This document shows, piece by piece, positions 35,447-42,995 of a DNA stretch of 46,663 bases (position 1 is its first letter; each line of letters begins with the position of its first letter). Below the pieces are notes generated by a model. It saw only the letters and a list, made by a program, of their open reading frames with translations. It was not told the DNA's origin and did no database searches. The position numbers and the translations under genes are program-made. This stretch comes from Deltaproteobacteria bacterium (GTDB lineage Bacteria > Desulfobacterota > Desulfobulbia > Desulfobulbales > SURF-16), in assembly GCA_016219175.1 (NCBI GenBank), contig JACRCD010000061.1:1-46663 (forward strand). Direction: 5' to 3'.

Positions 35447-36592
35447 ATGACCCAGGAAACATTCAACATCCCTGATTTCAGCAAGCTGCGGCAGCTCATT
35501 GACGCCTCGACAGAGGCGGACGTCCAGCGCGCCCTGCACAACGACAGGATCGATATCGCAGGCCTGGCCGCCCTGCTGTCGCCGGTAGCCGACGCCCTGC
35601 TGCCCCGGCTGGCCGCCCGTTCCGCCCATATAACCGCCCAACGTTTCGGCCGCACCATTCAGCTCTATGCCCCGCTCTATCTGTCCAATTTCTGCACCAA
35701 CCGCTGCGCCTACTGCGGCTTTGCGGCCAATAACACAATAGAACGGAGGGTGCTGACCCTGGCCGAGGCGGAACAGGAGGCCATGATTCTGCAAGGCCGG
35801 GGTTTCAACCATATCCTGCTGGTGGCGGGCGAGGCCCCGGCCCGGCTGGGTGTTGATTATCTGGCCGAACTGGCCCTGCGCCTGCGAGACCGCTTCGCCG
35901 CCATTTCCATTGAGGTGCAGCCCCTGGAAGAGAAGCAGTACGCTCGTCTCTTTGCCGCGGGCATCACCAGCGTGGCCGTCTATCAGGAGACCTATGACCG
36001 CACGGTTTACCGGCAGGTGCATCATGCCGGCAAAAAATGCGATTTTGACTACCGGCTGGCCACTCCGGCCCGGGCCGCTGGGGCCGGCATGCGGGAAATC
36101 GGCATCGGCGCCCTGCTGGGTCTGGCTGACTGGCGGCTGGAGGGTCTGGCCCTGGGGCTGCATCTGGCCTGGCTGCGCAAACATTACTGGCGCACGGCGC
36201 TGACTGTTTCTTTTCCCCGGCTCCGTCCGGCGGAAGGCGGGTTTCAGCCCCTGGTTGCGGTTACCGAGCGCATGCTGAGCCAGTTGCTTTTTGCCCTGCG
36301 TATTTTTGACCCTGATGCGGGGCTTCTGCTGTCAACCAGGGAGGAGGCCCGCTTCCGGGACGGCATGATCGGCCTCGGTCCCACCCGCTATTCCGCGGGC
36401 TCCTGCACGGCTCCGGGCGGCTATGCCCATCCCGAGTTGACGGGCGAGCAATTTTCCGTCGGCGATCATCGTTCCCTGGGGGAGGTGTGCGCCGATATCT
36501 GCCACAGAGGATATGACCCGGTCCGCAAGGATTGGGATGCAACGTTCCAGAGAAAGGAAGCGAGCCGGGAGCCGGCCGCCGCTTCCCGATGA
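35447..36592 (+). CDS. thiH: 2-iminoacetate synthase ThiH (radical SAM)
   Basis: The product is 381 residues. The radical SAM cluster motif is CTNRCAYC with Cys83, Cys87 and Cys90. GEAPARLGVDYL and EIGIGALLGLADWRLE are typical of ThiH, as is the tail with GYDPVRKDWD. It cleaves tyrosine to p-cresol and dehydroglycine for ThiG, an oxygen-sensitive reaction that fits an anaerobe (aerobes often use ThiO instead). It follows thiG by 16 bp and precedes the AICAR formyltransferase by 19 bp. Confidence 0.95.
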   Translation: MTQETFNIPDFSKLRQLIDASTEADVQRALHNDRIDIAGLAALLSPVADALLPRLAARSAHITAQRFGRTIQLYAPLYLSNFCTNRCAYCGFAANNTIERRVLTLAEAEQEAMILQGRGFNHILLVAGEAPARLGVDYLAELALRLRDRFAAISIEVQPLEEKQYARLFAAGITSVAVYQETYDRTVYRQVHHAGKKCDFDYRLATPARAAGAGMREIGIGALLGLADWRLEGLALGLHLAWLRKHYWRTALTVSFPRLRPAEGGFQPLVAVTERMLSQLLFALRIFDPDAGLLLSTREEARFRDGMIGLGPTRYSAGSCTAPGGYAHPELTGEQFSVGDHRSLGEVCADICHRGYDPVRKDWDATFQRKEASREPAAASR

Positions 36593-36611
36593 TTCCAGAG
36601 AGAGGAGAGTT

Positions 36612-37907
36612 ATGGCTGCACAGGATTTGAAAAAAATGTACACCACGATTTTAGGCGATCATTTCCCCATGGAGATGAAGATTTCCTTTGGCGATCAGAC
36701 CCTGGTTTATCGCAAGAGGACCTGGAAAATCCCCATGGAGGACGGCACCATTGATGAACGCGGGGTGCGCTACGGCGAGAACCCGGACCAGGAGGCCGCC
36801 CTCTACGAGCTGGTCAACGGCAACCTGGCGCTGGGCGACTGCAAATTTATCGAACCGGGCCACGGCCTGGTGAGCGGCATCAGCGTGGAAGACATGCTGC
36901 AGGTGGGCAAACATCCGGGCAAGATCAATCTCACCGACATCGACAACGGCCTCAATATCCTCAAATATCTCATGGACCGGCCGGCCGCTGTCATTTTGAA
37001 GCATAACAACCCCTGCGGCGCGGCCTACGGCAAGACCCTGGCCGATGCCTATAACCGGGCCAACCGGGCCGACCGCATCGCCGCCTTCGGCGGGGCCGTG
37101 ATCATGAGCCGTGCCGTTGACCGGGAAACGGCGGAGCTGCTCAGCGGCAATTATCTGGAGGTGGTCTGCGCCCCGGATTTTGAGGAGGGCGCCTTGGATA
37201 TCCTCAAGACCCGCAAGAACCTGCGGGTCATCAAGATGGGTCGCATCGACCGGCTGGCCGACTTTGAAAAGTACCGTTACGTTGATTTCAAGAGCCTGAT
37301 CGACGGCGGCATCATCGCCCAGCAGTCCGCGGTCAACTCCATCCGCAAACCCGAGCATTTGAAGGACGCGGTCACCACCTACAAGGGCCGGGAATACCGC
37401 TGTGAGCGGCAGCCCACCGCGGCCGAGATCGACGACATGCTGTTCGGCTGGGCCGTGGAGCATGGCGTCACTTCAAACTCGGTCATCTATGTCAAGGATG
37501 GCTGCACCGTAGGCATCGGCACCGGCGAGCAGGACCGGGTGGGAGTGGCCGAGATCGCCGTGCACAAGGCCTATATCAAGTATGCCGATATCATCTGCTT
37601 TGATAAGCTGGGCATCCCCTATGCCGACATGGTGCTGCAGATCGAGCAGGGCAAGCGCGACAAGGCGGACCAGGAAATGATCGACGCCCAGACCAAAAAA
37701 GACCGGGCCGGTCTGCCCGGCTCGGTGATGATCTCCGATGCCTTTTTCCCTTACCGTGACGGGGCGGACGTCGGCATCCGCCAGGGGGTGGGCGCCATTC
37801 TGCAGGCGGGCGGCTCCATGCGCGACTTTGAAACCATCGAGGCGTGCAACGAGGCCAAGCCCCAGGTGGCCATGAAGTTTACCGGGCAGCGCTCCTTCAA
37901 GCATTAA
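36612..37907 (+). CDS. Stand-alone AICAR formyltransferase (PurH C-domain-like)
   Basis: The product is 431 residues from the ATG at 36612 after AGAGGAGAG. It matches the formyltransferase half of PurH: RYGENPDQEAALYE, KHNNPCGAAYG (the catalytic KHxNPCG), AFGGAVIMSRAV, GIGTGEQDRVGVAEIA and the C-terminal SDAFFPYRDG, AGGSMRDFE and FTGQRSFKH. The N-terminal IMP cyclohydrolase domain of ordinary PurH (about 200 residues) is missing, so inosine ring closure must be done elsewhere. It ends the thi operon. A link to thiamine is possible because AIR is shared by purine and thiamine synthesis, but this is inference. Confidence 0.85.
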   Translation: MAAQDLKKMYTTILGDHFPMEMKISFGDQTLVYRKRTWKIPMEDGTIDERGVRYGENPDQEAALYELVNGNLALGDCKFIEPGHGLVSGISVEDMLQVGKHPGKINLTDIDNGLNILKYLMDRPAAVILKHNNPCGAAYGKTLADAYNRANRADRIAAFGGAVIMSRAVDRETAELLSGNYLEVVCAPDFEEGALDILKTRKNLRVIKMGRIDRLADFEKYRYVDFKSLIDGGIIAQQSAVNSIRKPEHLKDAVTTYKGREYRCERQPTAAEIDDMLFGWAVEHGVTSNSVIYVKDGCTVGIGTGEQDRVGVAEIAVHKAYIKYADIICFDKLGIPYADMVLQIEQGKRDKADQEMIDAQTKKDRAGLPGSVMISDAFFPYRDGADVGIRQGVGAILQAGGSMRDFETIEACNEAKPQVAMKFTGQRSFKH

Positions 37908-37914
37908 GCGGGAG

Positions 37915-37946
37915 TTGACAAACGGTTCCTTTTCCGCTGTTATATT
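37915..37946 (+). promoter_or_regulatory. Possible promoter before the LolA-like gene
   Basis: TTGACA at 37915-37920 is a perfect -35 box and TATATT at 37941-37946 resembles a -10 box. The spacing of 20 bases is longer than the ideal 17, though TTATAT one base earlier gives 19. It sits right after the formyltransferase stop codon, where a new transcription unit may begin. Confidence 0.4.
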
Positions 37947-37950
37947 CAGT

Positions 37951-38754
37951 ATGAATGGAGCAGCGGCAAGAGACAGGGCACGGGACACACCACGACATGG
38001 TCGGGTGTTGTTTTGCGCCCTTTTTTTGTTGAGTTTCTTTTTGGTCTTTCCGCCCCGGCTCGCGCGGGCGGATGAAGCGGCGGAGATCATCAAAAAGGTG
38101 GAGGACAACCTGAACGGCAGGTCCGCGGTGCTCAAGATCGCCATGATCATCAAGACCAGCCGCGCCACCCGCACCATGAAGATGGAGAGCTTTTCCGTGG
38201 GCAGCGAGAAAAGTTTCATCAAGATCACCTATCCGGGCAAGGATTACGGCATCACCTTTCTCAAGATCAACGACGCCATGTGGCAGTATGTGCCGCGCAT
38301 TGAAAAGATCATCAAAATTCCCGCCTCCATGATGCTGCAGAGCTGGATGGGCACCGATTTCTCCAATGACGACCTGGTGCGGGAGAGTTCCATCAGCCGC
38401 GATTATACGGCGAAAATTCTCAGCCAAAGCGACACGGCATATGAAATTGAACTGCTGCCGCAGCCCGAGGCAGCCGTGGTCTGGGGCAAGCTGGTCATGG
38501 GGGTGGCGAAGCCGGAGCTGCTGCCGCAAAGCGTCCGCTATTATGACGAAGAGGGGGTGCTGGTGCGGATTCTCGAATACACGGAGGTGAAGCGGCTGGG
38601 CGACCGCCTCTATCCCTCCCGCTGGGTGATGCTGCCCCAGGACAAGGAAAAGTACGGCAACCAGACCATCATCGAAATCACCGAGGCAACCTTTGACGTG
38701 GAAATCGATGAGGAGTATTTCAGCAAACGGGCCCTGCAGCGCTTTTCGGAATAA
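37951..38754 (+). CDS. LolA-like outer-membrane lipoprotein-sorting protein
   Basis: The product is 267 residues from the ATG at 37951; a TTG at 37915 and a GTG at 38005 are alternatives and none has a good ribosome-binding site. A signal peptide (VLFCALFLLSFFLVFPPRLARA) ends before DEAAEII. The mature part forms the LolA/LppX-type half-barrel: SRATRTMKMESFSVGSEKSFIKI, MWQYVPRIEKIIKIPASMMLQSWMGTDFSNDDL. That fold carries lipids or lipidated proteins across the periplasm. It heads an operon with two FtsX permeases, an ATPase and an OM barrel. Confidence 0.82.
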   Translation: MNGAAARDRARDTPRHGRVLFCALFLLSFFLVFPPRLARADEAAEIIKKVEDNLNGRSAVLKIAMIIKTSRATRTMKMESFSVGSEKSFIKITYPGKDYGITFLKINDAMWQYVPRIEKIIKIPASMMLQSWMGTDFSNDDLVRESSISRDYTAKILSQSDTAYEIELLPQPEAAVVWGKLVMGVAKPELLPQSVRYYDEEGVLVRILEYTEVKRLGDRLYPSRWVMLPQDKEKYGNQTIIEITEATFDVEIDEEYFSKRALQRFSE

Positions 38755-38917
38755 AGAAGCGTTCCAACGGGCAAGCGTTTCAGCGATCAAGCGATCAAAC
38801 GCTGAAACGTTTGTACGCTGAAACGCTGAAACGCTGAGGCGCTGGAACGCTTAAACGTTGACTGGAACGCTTAAACGTTGAAACGATGGAACCGTTGTTC
38901 ACTGGAACGTTGGAACT
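38755..38917 (+). repeat. 8-bp-periodic intergenic repeat tract
   Basis: Between the LolA-like gene and the first permease the DNA is almost wholly built of degenerate octamers of the type AACGCTGA, about twenty units, with one 4-base half-unit (CTGG). A perfect 20-bp tandem duplication covers 38842-38861 and 38862-38881. It reaches within a few bases of the permease ATG and supplies the only weak ribosome-binding bases (GGAAC). The same octamer style is seen at the thiF-thiS spacer. Confidence 0.85.
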
Positions 38918-40138
38918 ATGTTTTTCAAAATCGCTGTCCGCAATATCCGCGCCTACAAAAAGCGCAGCATCATCACCGTGATTCTGCTGGCCTGCACCAC
39001 CGCGCTGCTGGTTTTCGCCACGGCCTACATGGATGGCTCCCATGAGCGCATGATCCGGAGCAGCGTGGAGATTTACCCCGGCTACGTGCAGATCACCCAC
39101 CGCGATTTCCGTGATAGCCCGAGCCTGGAGAATCTGATCTTTGACGCCGGGCAGGTGACGGCCGCCCTGGCGGACCTGCCCGGCATTGCGGTCCTCACCC
39201 CCCGCTATGAATCATTTGTCCTCTTTGCCGCGGGCAACAAGGCCGTGGGCGGCATGCTCACCGGTATCGATCCGGCCAAAGAGGGCAGGGTCTCCCGGCT
39301 GTGGGAGTCCCGCAAGCAGGGGGAGTATCTGGAGGAAACGGACTCCGCCCTGGTCTACATGGGCAGTGAGCTGGCCCGACGTCTCAAGGTGGGGGTGAAT
39401 GACGAGGTGGCCTTTGTCGGCACTGGGGCCGACTATTCCTTTAGTGCCGACACCCTGCGGGTCAAGGGCATTTTCCGGACCGGCCTCTTTGATTTTGATA
39501 ACCGGGCCGCCTTTGTGGCTAAATCCTATCTTGACCGGGTGATGGGTGCGGAAAATTACGCCACCCATTTCATTGTGCTGCCGGCGCGGCCGGAGGAGGC
39601 GGCGGAACTGGCCGCGGCCATTGGCGAACGGCTCGGGCCGGAATACGAGGCGGCCAGCTGGCGGCAGACCATGGCCGGGCTGGTGCAGGCCATGCGGGTT
39701 GATACCATTTTCGGCTACATCACCCTGGGTATCATCTTCATCGTCATCTTTTTTGTCGTCATGATCTACACCATGCTGGCCGTCTCTGCCCGGCTGCGGG
39801 AAATCGGCATCCTGCGGGCCGTGGGCACCGAACCCGGCCAGGTATGGCGCATGCTGGTCATGGAGAGCGTGCTGCTCGCCCTGGTGAGCGTTGTGGCGGG
39901 CGGCCTGATCGGCGGCAGCCTCGCCTATTATTTCAAGCTTCATCCCATTGTCTTCTCAGGTTTTGAGGAGCAGTTCAAGCAGTACGGCCTGGCCATGACC
40001 GACATGCCCACCGCCTTTGCGCCGCTGGTCATTGTCCGTGACATGGCGCTGATGTTTGTCCTCTCTGTCGCCGCCACCCTCTATCCGATCCACAAGGTGA
40101 ACGGCTACCGTCCCATCGAGGCGATGCACCATGTTTAG
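38918..40138 (+). CDS. FtsX/LolC-type ABC transporter permease, first
   Basis: The product is 406 residues with the four-helix LolC/MacB topology. Helix 1 is at about 17-37 (RSIITVILLACTTALLVFATAY), a large periplasmic domain spans 40-265, and helices at about 268-290, 313-341 and 372-392 follow. The helix after the periplasmic domain reads GYITLGIIFIVIFFVVMIYTM, and LREIGILRAVGTEPGQVWRM is the coupling segment for the ATPase. It probably works as a heterodimer with the next gene, whose start overlaps its end by 8 bp. Confidence 0.88.
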   Translation: MFFKIAVRNIRAYKKRSIITVILLACTTALLVFATAYMDGSHERMIRSSVEIYPGYVQITHRDFRDSPSLENLIFDAGQVTAALADLPGIAVLTPRYESFVLFAAGNKAVGGMLTGIDPAKEGRVSRLWESRKQGEYLEETDSALVYMGSELARRLKVGVNDEVAFVGTGADYSFSADTLRVKGIFRTGLFDFDNRAAFVAKSYLDRVMGAENYATHFIVLPARPEEAAELAAAIGERLGPEYEAASWRQTMAGLVQAMRVDTIFGYITLGIIFIVIFFVVMIYTMLAVSARLREIGILRAVGTEPGQVWRMLVMESVLLALVSVVAGGLIGGSLAYYFKLHPIVFSGFEEQFKQYGLAMTDMPTAFAPLVIVRDMALMFVLSVAATLYPIHKVNGYRPIEAMHHV

Positions 40139-41354
40139 GATAACCTGCCGCATTGCCTGGGCCTCCCTGGCCCGGCGCGGTTCGCGCTCGCTGCTGGTAG
40201 TGCTGATGATTGCCATGAGTTTGTGGGGGCTGCTCTTCCTTGAAGGCATCTATGACGGCATGACCGAGCAGATGATCAGCAACGCCATCCGCAGCGACAG
40301 CGGCCAGATCTCGCTTTTTGCCGCCGGTTACCGCCAGGATCCTGATCTTGACCGGCTGATCAGCCAGACGGAGGAGGTTGGCCGGCTGCTTGACAATGAC
40401 CGGAGGGTGCGGAGCCATGTGCAGCGGCTCAGGCAGGATGGCCTGGCTGCCACGGCGCACTATGCGCGTAGCGTGACGGTGTTTGGGGTGGATCTGGGTG
40501 CTGAACGGGCGCACGGAAGGCTGGACCGGTACCTGATCGCGGGCGCCTATGATTTCGGTGACAGGAAAAAGGGGGTGCTGCTCGGGGCGAGGCTGGCGGA
40601 CAAGCTGAAGGTGAAGATCGGCGGCAAACTCATTGTCTCGGCCCAGAACAGCGCACAGGAGGTGGCAGGTGTCGCCCTGACGATCACCGGCATCGTGCGC
40701 GCCAACAATATGGCCCTTGATGAAGCGGCCGTTTTTATCGATATGGACAAGGCCAGGGAGCTGTTCATGACGCCAACCGGGGTAAGCCAGATCTGTGTCA
40801 TTCTCCAGGACGAGCAGGACATTGCCGCCCTGCGGCAGGAGCTGCAACAGCGCTTTCCCGATCTGGAGGTTCTGCGCTGGGACGAGATCTATCCCGCCCT
40901 GCTGCAGGGCAGGGTGATGATGAAGGGCTTTAATCTGGTCATGAGTCTGCTGATCTTCGGCGTCGCCGGGCTTGGCATTTTCGGGGTCATGGTGGTGTCG
41001 GTGCTGGAGCGGTTGCGGGAGTTCGGCATCATGCTGGCCATCGGCACCTCCTTTAGCCGGGTGCGGCAGATCATTTTCACCGAATCCTTCATCCTGGGCG
41101 CCACGGGCTATCTGGCCGGCTCCCTGCTGGGCGGGGCGACCCTGGTCTATTTTTATCACCATGGCCTTGATCTGACCGTGTTCAGTCAAGGGCTGCAGGA
41201 GTTCGGCATGGACGCCATCACCTATGCCGTCATCCGGCCCCAATATTTTTTGACTGCCTTTGGCGCGGTCATGCTGGCCACCTTGGTCAGTGTGCTGATC
41301 CCCCTGCGGCTTTTAAAAAAGTCCAACCCCATTGAGGCGATCAATAAGGTATAA
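40131..41354 (+). CDS. FtsX/LolE-type ABC transporter permease, second
   Basis: The product is 407 residues with the same plan as its neighbour: a first helix near 20-40 (RSLLVVLMIAMSLWGLLFLEG), a periplasmic domain to about 260 and three C-terminal helices, with LREFGIMLAIGTSFSRVRQI as the coupling segment. Sequence identity to the first permease looks modest. The two are probably LolC/LolE-like partners extracting a substrate from the inner-membrane outer leaflet. Its stop codon shares a base with the ATPase start. Confidence 0.88.
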   Translation: MFRITCRIAWASLARRGSRSLLVVLMIAMSLWGLLFLEGIYDGMTEQMISNAIRSDSGQISLFAAGYRQDPDLDRLISQTEEVGRLLDNDRRVRSHVQRLRQDGLAATAHYARSVTVFGVDLGAERAHGRLDRYLIAGAYDFGDRKKGVLLGARLADKLKVKIGGKLIVSAQNSAQEVAGVALTITGIVRANNMALDEAAVFIDMDKARELFMTPTGVSQICVILQDEQDIAALRQELQQRFPDLEVLRWDEIYPALLQGRVMMKGFNLVMSLLIFGVAGLGIFGVMVVSVLERLREFGIMLAIGTSFSRVRQIIFTESFILGATGYLAGSLLGGATLVYFYHHGLDLTVFSQGLQEFGMDAITYAVIRPQYFLTAFGAVMLATLVSVLIPLRLLKKSNPIEAINKV

Positions 41355-42049
41355 TGAATTCCTCCTTTCTTGAAGTCAAAAACATCAGCAAAACCTTTCA
41401 GCCGGGCCGTGATGTGCAGGTGGCCGCCTTGGCCGATATCACCCTTTCCTTCAACCGGGGCGAGTTCGTGGTCATTCACGGCCCGTCCGGCAGCGGCAAG
41501 ACGACCCTGCTCAATATCATGGGCGGCCTTGACTCCCCCACCTCGGGCGATGTAATCCTGGACGGCGAAAAGGTGACCGGCGTCCCGGAAAAACAGCTCT
41601 CCCGGCTGCGGCGCGACCATATCGGTTTTGTCTTCCAGGCCTACAACCTCATTCCCGTGCTCACCGCCCGGGAAAATATCGAGTATGTCATGCAGCTCCA
41701 AGGCCGCGGCCGGCTGGAATGCACCAACCGCACCCAGCAGGTGGCGGAAAAGCTGGCCATTGACAAGCTGCTCGACAAATTGCCGAACCAGCTCTCCGGC
41801 GGCCAGCAGCAGCGGGTCGCCGTGGCCCGGGCCGTGGCCTCGAGCCCCAAGCTGATCCTGGCCGATGAACCCACGGCCAATCTCGATTCAAAAAGCGCGG
41901 CTGGGCTGATGGACATGATGCAGGCCTTAAACGAGGACGAGGGGATCACCATTATTTTTTCCTCCCATGACCCCCTGGTGATAGGCAAGGCCAAACATTC
42001 GGTGCTGTTGCGGGACGGCATGGTGGCCTCGGATGAGTTTTTTGGTTAG
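41354..42049 (+). CDS. LolD/MacB-type ABC transporter ATP-binding protein
   Basis: The product is 231 residues. Walker A is GPSGSGKT (43-50), the Q-loop region has FVFQAYNLIPVLTARENIEY, the signature is LSGGQQQRVAVARAVA and Walker B is LILADEPTANLDS. These match the LolD/FtsE/MacB subfamily that drives FtsX-type permeases by mechanotransmission. It starts at the last base of the permease stop and overlaps the outer-membrane gene by 17 bp. Confidence 0.93.
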   Translation: MNSSFLEVKNISKTFQPGRDVQVAALADITLSFNRGEFVVIHGPSGSGKTTLLNIMGGLDSPTSGDVILDGEKVTGVPEKQLSRLRRDHIGFVFQAYNLIPVLTARENIEYVMQLQGRGRLECTNRTQQVAEKLAIDKLLDKLPNQLSGGQQQRVAVARAVASSPKLILADEPTANLDSKSAAGLMDMMQALNEDEGITIIFSSHDPLVIGKAKHSVLLRDGMVASDEFFG

Positions 42050-42995
42050 CCTGCTGGCCGGGGCGGGGTTGCTGGCCCTGCCGCCGCGGGTGGCCCTGGA
42101 GAATACCAGCATCGCTGGCTTTGCCGACGATTTCCGCTTCACCGGCCTGAACCGGCTGCGGGCCGATATCAGTGTTGCCCAGGCAGAGCATGGTGGCTTT
42201 GCCGCCAGACTACAGATTGACAACAAGACGTTGTATGTGGAGCAGCCGTTTGATTTCACAAGCGATACCTCCATCTATCGCGGCTTTCTCGAATACCGAG
42301 GGGCCAGCCATTTCTGGACCCTGGGCCGCCAGCGTATCCCCCTGGGCGTGGGGAGGGTCTGGAATCCCATTGACATCTTCAACCCCATTGATGTCCAGGC
42401 CACGGAACCGGAGGAGCGCATCGGCACCGAGGCGTTGCACTACGAATATGCCACGAGCCGGCTGGCCAACCTGGATCTGACCCTGTCCCGGGACAAGGGG
42501 GAGGGGAGAATCAAGGGGTATCTCGATGTGGCGGATGTGGCCCTGGTCACCCTGTACGATACTGAGGCGCGGCTCGATATCATCGGCTGGGAGCTGGAAG
42601 GGGAGCTTTTTGATACCGGCCTCGAACTGCGCAGCGAAGGGGGCAGCTTTCATGACCGGGAGGCGGACAGCCGCCGTACTGCCTTTATTGGAGGGGCTGA
42701 GTATGGCTTTGCCAATTCCCTTACATTGCTTACGGAATACCTTTATGACGGCGAGAGCAAGAGGGACAACATGGCGGTCAGCGTCAGCTTCCAGCCGCGC
42801 ATCCTGTGGACCGTGCGTTGTCTTGCCGTGCAGGACCTTGATGATCATTCCTTTTTTATCAGTCCGGCCGTGGAATACAGCGCCGGCGATGAAATGACCA
42901 TCAGCGCCGGGGCCTTTCTCTATCACGGCAGCGGCGCTGATGCCTATGGCGGCTTTGCCGACCGCATCCATGTGCGCTGGTTTGTCCATTTTTGA
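42033..42995 (+). CDS. Putative outer-membrane beta-barrel protein
   Basis: The product is 320 residues with a short N-terminal hydrophobic stretch (MSFLVSLLAGAGLLALPP) that can serve as a signal peptide. Alternating polar/hydrophobic strands follow, such as FHDREADSRRTAFIGGAEYGFANS and DHSFFISPAVEYSAGDEMTISAG. It ends in VHF with terminal Phe, the OM assembly signature. I do not recognise a named family. It overlaps the ATPase gene by 17 bp, so it is translationally coupled and probably the outer-membrane end of the same pathway. Confidence 0.75.
   Translation: MSFLVSLLAGAGLLALPPRVALENTSIAGFADDFRFTGLNRLRADISVAQAEHGGFAARLQIDNKTLYVEQPFDFTSDTSIYRGFLEYRGASHFWTLGRQRIPLGVGRVWNPIDIFNPIDVQATEPEERIGTEALHYEYATSRLANLDLTLSRDKGEGRIKGYLDVADVALVTLYDTEARLDIIGWELEGELFDTGLELRSEGGSFHDREADSRRTAFIGGAEYGFANSLTLLTEYLYDGESKRDNMAVSVSFQPRILWTVRCLAVQDLDDHSFFISPAVEYSAGDEMTISAGAFLYHGSGADAYGGFADRIHVRWFVHF

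Follow-up and report, generated by a model that had tools for sequence, protein, structure and literature searches.

A conserved five-gene operon pairing a LolA-like carrier with an outer-membrane barrel: a candidate lipid-like molecule exporter of the Desulfobulbales

The 46,663-nucleotide stretch analysed here (the window; contig JACRCD010000061.1) is contig C34 of a 4.2-Mb, 98.4% complete genome of the Desulfobulbales lineage SURF-16; Desulfurivibrio and Desulfobulbaceae assemblies are among its nearest named relatives. It contains a five-gene operon for a LolA-like carrier, two FtsX-type permeases (A and B), an ATP-binding cassette (ABC) ATPase and an outer-membrane barrel (Table 1). An earlier note, made from the sequence alone, had placed all five open reading frames (ORFs) on the forward strand at these positions, with overlaps of 8, 1 and 17 bp among the last four genes, and the ORF list and Pfam agree with it. 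An alternative in-frame TTG start for the carrier gene lies at 37915.

Table 1 Features of the operon in the window
Feature	Position	Strand	Basis or remark
LolA-like carrier gene	37951-38754	+	PF17131 LolA_like, Pfam 2.5e-44
Spacer	38755-38917	no strand	Degenerate AAACGCTG / CTGGAACGCTTAAACGTTGA tandem repeats; Tandem Repeats Finder rows 38757-38881
Permease A, FtsX-type	38918-40138	+	Pfam FtsX 3.7e-15
Segment GTGADYSFSAD of permease A, where LolC/LolF have their Hook	39419-39451	+	Alignments
Permease B, FtsX-type and MacB_PCD	40131-41354	+	Pfam 1.4e-15 and 1.2e-12
ABC ATPase	41354-42049	+	Pfam ABC_tran 3.2e-36
18-stranded outer-membrane barrel, C-terminal F	42033-42995	+	AlphaFold2 model; without Pfam or NCBIfam family
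Barrel residues 101-131, sole long strand-free segment, highly conserved	42333-42425	+	DSSP and alignment conservation

The carrier begins with a signal-peptide-like segment, shows no lipobox on inspection by eye and matches PF17131 over positions 1-184 of 184 (151.6 bits against a curated cut-off of 30 bits); this was its only Pfam match at E ≤ 1, PF03548 (LolA) not being among them. In fold comparison, its AlphaFold2 model (predicted local distance difference test, pLDDT, 86.6) reached Z 24-27 against 4z48, 9tp6, 3bk5 and 3buu, among them Z 25.8 at 26% identity for 9tp6, the LolA3 of Porphyromonas gingivalis, and about 10-14 against LolA or LolB; absence from the fold tables of carrier or barrel was not counted against any family. 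On the strength of the model, the carrier is assigned to the LolA3/DUF1329 structural branch. PF17131 also matches control genomes, including those of the archaea Methanosarcina, Methanocaldococcus and Haloferax, which have no Gram-negative outer membrane; four of the six matching controls, counted together rather than singly, were above the cut-off.

The nearest solved chains are LolF, then LolC, for permease A and LolF, then LolE, for permease B, and the ATPase carries Walker A (GPSGSGKT), signature (LSGGQQQ) and Walker B (LILADEP) motifs. The permeases score 111.1 (A) and 86 bits (B) against the LolC/E model TIGR02212, below its cut-off of 362.45 and against 412.6 bits for the genome's own LolCE on contig C21, and the ATPase scores 195.9 bits against the LolD model TIGR02211, below its cut-off of 307.75. 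The genome's own LolCE contains the segment PSGPLTPMG, which we take to be the Hook of LolC/LolF, with its role in binding LolA. At that place, permease A and permease B are five residues shorter and free of such a motif in 13/13 and 15/15 alignment rows, respectively, and the segment is also missing from all 59 further permease rows, one of which (L096_11413) comes from a neighbouring system; permease A instead has a conserved GTGADYSFAAD-like segment. Carrier docking at the Hook place, if it occurs there, would need another way.

The earlier note had suggested a check for canonical Lol genes elsewhere in the genome, and these are present: PF03548 LolA proteins occur on C8 and C88, and the LolCE on C21, which is above its curated cut-off, adjoins an ABC ATPase (probably LolD), a class II D/K/N tRNA synthetase (probably lysS) and an Omp85/POTRA protein (probably bamA). 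A Pfam profile search of the genome found no PF03550 LolB, whose absence is usual outside the beta- and gamma-proteobacteria. Because the genome has PF03548 LolA and an above-cut-off LolCE locus, lipoproteins have their own route, and general lipoprotein sorting is served elsewhere in the genome. The operon as a second Lol system was rejected on the cut-offs, the missing Hook and the intact canonical locus, and the earlier picture of a Lol pathway with a barrel in place of LolB is not supported, given the genome's own LolA and LolCE, the Hook-less permeases and a carrier of the LolA3/DUF1329 branch. A Lol-like lipoprotein route, as the authors of the Borrelia BBJ23-29 work suggest for their cluster in the available text (PMC13078400), nevertheless has in its favour that LolF, LolC and LolE are the permeases' nearest solved relatives and that the carrier shares the LolA/LolB fold. 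We consider it improbable, given the same scores, Hook alignments and canonical locus and what the available passages report of LolA3, namely that the P. gingivalis protein binds LolB only weakly and lacks the LolA arginine, the LolB leucine also being absent (PMC13103446), and that deletion of lolA3 in Flavobacterium johnsoniae impairs neither gliding nor amylase secretion (PMC11885536). LolA3 itself, though, seems closer to the resistance-nodulation-division (RND) branch described below.

The earlier note could not place the barrel in a family, and indeed no Pfam family at E ≤ 1 and no NCBIfam family matched it, nor did a search of PDB sequences with the barrel profile give a match, but it does share the general OprD/AlgE fold. 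Its alignment-based AlphaFold2 model has 18 strands (mean pLDDT 93.9; predicted template modelling score 0.85) and matches, across nearly the full chain, OprD/Occ (Z about 23, 7-9% identity) and Wzi (Z 20), and also AlgE (Z about 22, root-mean-square deviation about 3.0, 272-278 residues aligned, 14-15% identity); as modelled, OprD/Occ and AlgE are tied as the closest folds. When the inward side of each strand is taken as the less hydrophobic parity, a rule that partly builds in the polarity contrast, 20 acidic and 19 basic residues fall among 106 inward positions, against 5 and 1 among 97 outward positions. The invariant charged residues, whose invariance is independent of that rule, number 15 inward and 0 outward. 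Two fragments (L036 and L048) were left out of the barrel alignment (A1). The modelled lumen resembles a specific polar channel more than a greasy seam, and the long segment, a conserved QRIPLGVGRxWNPIDxFNPID...ERxGTE region, probably folds inward. The combination of a charged lumen and a protein of lipid-carrier type suggests that the cargo bears acyl chains together with a polar head, and it is probably not the general lipoprotein pool. The earlier note's 'lipid or lipoprotein' is divided: its lipid-like half is still plausible and its lipoprotein half disfavoured.

Whether the five-gene order is kept in relatives was a further check that the earlier note had proposed, and the order is kept. 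A barrel search of 97 relatives gave 16 matches at E ≤ 0.001, one weak; among 14 orthologous loci, 12 have the five genes in order (the barrel of L048 being cut by a contig end), L036 has all five but in broken frames, and L047 is truncated at a contig end. A scan of named genomes, which has organisms in common with the 14-locus set so that the counts are not additive, found 55 loci, 33 of them close (L055-L087) and 22 distant (L088-L109). The close loci comprise 23 with the full order, one with broken frames (L055), seven cut by contig ends and two partnerless; in L073 and L081 (Candidatus Electrothrix), the permeases and carrier are missing though upstream sequence is present. Both the permease A/B and the ATPase/barrel pairs overlap in 23/23 complete close loci, counts that use mechanical longest-ORF starts and so overstate overlaps. 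The carrier and permease A are at most 89 bp apart in 22 of these and 316 bp apart in one; in the window a spacer of 163 bp lies between them. It contains an array of degenerate repeats (38757-38881), among them AAACGCTG and a perfect 20-bp doublet, and has 9 copies of AAACG on both strands, against 90 in the whole window.

Further afield, five of the 22 distant loci have the same order, two (L089 and L096) vary the order so that carrier and barrel are adjacent, 11 have a carrier, then a barrel, then an RND gene, and four are truncated or unclear (L092, L099, L105 and L106); MMPL was confirmed by Pfam for L108 and for a gene on C81 of the source genome, and the remaining RND genes were labelled by BLAST against these. 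Across the class, the barrel profile matched 109/257 genomes at E ≤ 1e-5 in a patchy distribution, the best matches being window-type in 33 (below 1e-60), second-tier in 37 (6e-30 to 2.4e-15) and weaker in 39. Nine of 13 second-tier loci (L134-L146) have all five genes, two are truncated and two (L138 and L144) partnerless; the second permease of L134 was seen only in the permease comparison. In the Bacteroidota, 49/198 genomes matched at E ≤ 1e-8 (47 below 1e-30), and the five genes were found in 18 of 20 loci examined (three of the 18 after hidden ATPase ORFs were found), the exceptions being L211, which lacks the five-gene set, and L218, which is labelled RND. A plasmid search returned one distant record, an 859-kb plasmid of Persicobacter sp. 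JZB09, which carries the full five-gene set (L239:1693-6813). The two-permease ABC branch was seen in Thermodesulfobacteriota, Campylobacterota, Bacteroidota, Calditrichota and Neomarinimicrobiota. Because the order recurs in relatives, the five-gene arrangement is not a matter of chance, and its retention as a unit in several phyla supports the earlier proposal of a self-contained route across inner membrane, periplasm and outer membrane.

Some copies depart from the intact form. In genome G002 (L036 and L055), a stop lies inside the barrel and permease A is split, through gene decay or assembly errors; the Electrothrix loci, like the second copy of genome G146 (L151), have ATPase and barrel but neither permeases nor carrier close by, as if decaying. 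Three genus-mates have related inserts between permease B and the ATPase (L035:8421-9010, L038:7819-8622 and L036:2007-3173), 79-86% identical over 338-555 bp, one of which resembles by eye a REP-associated transposase with REP-like palindromes; the window has no such insert.

The pairing of carrier and barrel extends beyond two-permease loci. The source genome has four PF17131 genes, each of which neighbours a barrel and an ABC or MMPL/RND engine: the window cluster with its two permeases, a C28 cluster with one permease and a 531-amino-acid barrel ORF, a C85 cluster with a fused 862-amino-acid permease, a 593-amino-acid barrel ORF and a PadR gene, and a C81 cluster with MMPL and a 424-amino-acid barrel. 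The C85 barrel was missed by the automatic neighbour test, in which extended ORFs overlap too far, and was placed from separate inspection of the locus; DUF1302 (PF06980) hits to the C81 and C85 barrels are weak and below cut-off (0.0027 and 0.044). PF17131 occurs in 40/58 genomes of the class that were searched, with 82 hits, from which 20 loci were hand-picked, not at random, to spread genomes and avoid the window type. A same-strand engine is present in 18/20 of these (14 RND, 4 ABC), and a downstream ORF of at least 280 amino acids ending in F or W in 19/20 (L221 is doubtful), against a background of 4/96 other such ORFs in the chosen loci and four further loci. Profile comparison relates the window barrel to those of RND loci, both 11 from named genomes (Prob 99.7, E 6e-26, 298 columns) and 14 from the class (Prob 97.9, E 5e-13), and to those of five single-permease loci (Prob 96.7, E 3.5e-10), with no link to those of three fused-permease loci (13%). 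The carriers of RND systems are likewise related to the window carrier.

A tree of 102 carriers requires at least two engine changes. Two-permease carriers, except the order variants L089 and L096, fall on one side of a branch (60 rows, SH-aLRT 98), the window carrier lying inside a set of 28 (SH-aLRT 100); the tree was built by a quick method with a midpoint root, gave long-branch warnings and left out 16 loci without a carrier hit. Two further alignments covered the window with 34 of the 55 loci (A3, leaving out L055, L066, L077, L081, L087 and 16 distant loci) and the window with 27 loci (A4). A Desulfocapsa assembly has an RND-type cluster with its own LolA-like gene (L069:6373-10674) a few kb from an ABC-type cluster. 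We regard it as an evenly balanced proposition that PF17131 carriers and an AlgE/DUF1302-like barrel superfamily form the fixed core of an exporter class, coupled to FtsX permeases (a single one, two, or two fused) or to MMPL/RND, possibly with four working in parallel in one genome, and that the window represents a two-permease ABC branch that recruits its carrier without the LolC Hook.

The surroundings of the operon vary. Radical SAM/BATS and AICARFT-like genes lie upstream (35447-37907) and stand beside the operon in 7/14 orthologous loci, and a response regulator and a histidine kinase lie downstream on the other strand, the former recurring in three of four genus-mates and the latter in two. 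Across loci, the neighbours include radical SAM, AICARFT-like, U32 peptidase, cytochrome, LUD protein, NfeD and serine dehydratase genes, with no recurring biosynthesis gene among the operon neighbours in the loci examined. Genes of 780-800 amino acids beside the operon in L134 and L137, considered as RND pumps, proved to be U32 peptidases, and a 768-amino-acid candidate in L092 has a spermine synthase domain instead.

Regulators bear on a different reading, in which a MacB-like pump, with a LolA-like protein replacing MacA and a barrel replacing TolC, performs broad or defensive efflux of toxic hydrophobic compounds. TetR and MarR types are common beside efflux pumps, and 13/17 tested genes upstream of carriers in relatives, picked by size and position, were TetR (5/5, 8/10 and 0/2 in three sets), the other four being one MarR, two glutamine amidotransferases and one gene without a family; permease B moreover matches MacB_PCD, and the available text on AmeABCD of Castellaniella defragrans ties that system to monoterpenes and dye efflux (PMC6394551). 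However, no TetR/MarR-type regulator adjoins the window operon among the window ORFs screened with Pfam, and the carrier and the long barrel segment are strongly conserved, which suggests a specific cargo; we consider broad efflux unlikely. MacAB-TolC itself was rejected since no HlyD-type adaptor or TolC-type duct is found among the five genes (elsewhere in the genome not searched).

We favour, at a probability of slightly under 60%, the interpretation that the operon encodes an ATP-driven trans-envelope exporter that delivers an amphipathic, lipid-like molecule through a LolA-like carrier to an AlgE-like barrel of its own. Permeases A and B with the ATPase, a type VII ABC transporter of MacB/LolCDE-like form, would use ATP-driven conformational change to extract the molecule from the inner membrane's outer leaflet; the PF17131 carrier would take its hydrophobic part into a half-barrel groove, ferry it across the periplasm and dock on the 18-stranded barrel, whose charged lumen and conserved long loop may then let the molecule through or display it on the cell surface. 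Published RND relatives are reported, in the text available, to deal with hydrophobic compounds, which by analogy supports an exporter. The opposite direction, a retrograde route returning lipid from the outer to the inner membrane, would suit the same three-compartment anatomy, which Mla-type systems share, and direction is not readable from sequence; exchange of the engine with MMPL/RND nevertheless points outward, and the known activity of type VII ABC and MMPL engines is export or extraction, which makes a retrograde route very improbable.

Several points weigh against the exporter interpretation as stated. No cargo gene is linked to the operon, and its neighbours vary; the permeases lack the Hook by which LolC takes LolA, so carrier docking is a prediction; the polar lumen of the model is not obviously suited to a plain lipid; the RND analogy would hold only if carrier and barrel kept their role; profiles gave no link to the barrels of fused-permease loci; and L138, L144, L211, L073 and L081 are without partners.

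Apart from a few model systems, little is settled about the way in which bacteria move lipids and other amphipathic molecules through the periplasm to their surface. If the exporter interpretation is true, a portable carrier and barrel core working with an ABC or RND engine would provide a unifying scheme, and a function for those PF17131 proteins that currently carry the label outer membrane lipoprotein-sorting protein, and for the orphan LolA3 of Bacteroidota. It would also make the question testable in culturable bacteria, 47 of the 198 Bacteroidota genomes having barrel-profile matches below 1e-30.

Single cases with related parts are already in print, judging from the available text of each report, and our searches of the openly licensed literature, in the portions available, turned up neither an account of the two-permease ABC version nor one of the class. 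AmeABCD resembles the window operon in that an inner-membrane engine is encoded together with a periplasmic protein of the LolA superfamily and a DUF1302 barrel of the outer membrane, and differs in its HAE3 RND engine, DUF1329 periplasmic protein, second periplasmic protein AmeC and larger barrel of 605 amino acids (PMC6394551). The window cluster has an ABC engine and no AmeABCD-type MMPL/HAE3 RND engine, an MMPL gene being present in the C81 cluster, and neither a DUF1302 barrel nor a DUF1329 carrier gave a Pfam hit in the window at E ≤ 1. In Thalassolituus, an MMPL protein with a LolA-like domain and its porin-like neighbour (TOL_3187/3188) are reported as raised on n-C28 alkane (PMC6304351). 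In a P. gingivalis table of genes raised under limited hemin, the first four rows are a run of TetR, MMPL, lipoprotein-sorting protein and hypothetical genes (PMC10470040), the last of which may encode a barrel. LolA3 of that species is of the same LolA-like branch as the window carrier, but by BLAST it is nearest to RND-linked carriers (39% to L236) and probably belongs with them. The Borrelia BBJ23-29 cluster likewise combines a MacB/LolCDE-like ABC transporter, a LolA-like protein and an outer-membrane barrel, but its barrel is of Omp85 type, its single permease is homodimeric and it has two additional chaperones (PMC13078400); Omp85-type assembly was rejected for the window barrel, in which Pfam finds neither Omp85 nor POTRA. 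AlgE shares the 18-stranded fold, but its chains are longer (403-466 residues), the window barrel has no Pfam alginate exporter match at E ≤ 1 and alginate machinery was not seen in the window. Canonical Lol (LolA with LolCDE or LolF) has in common with the operon a type VII ABC transporter and a periplasmic carrier of LolA fold, whereas the operon is set apart by its sub-cut-off scores, Hook-less permeases, other LolA branch and added barrel, and by its coexistence with canonical Lol in one genome.

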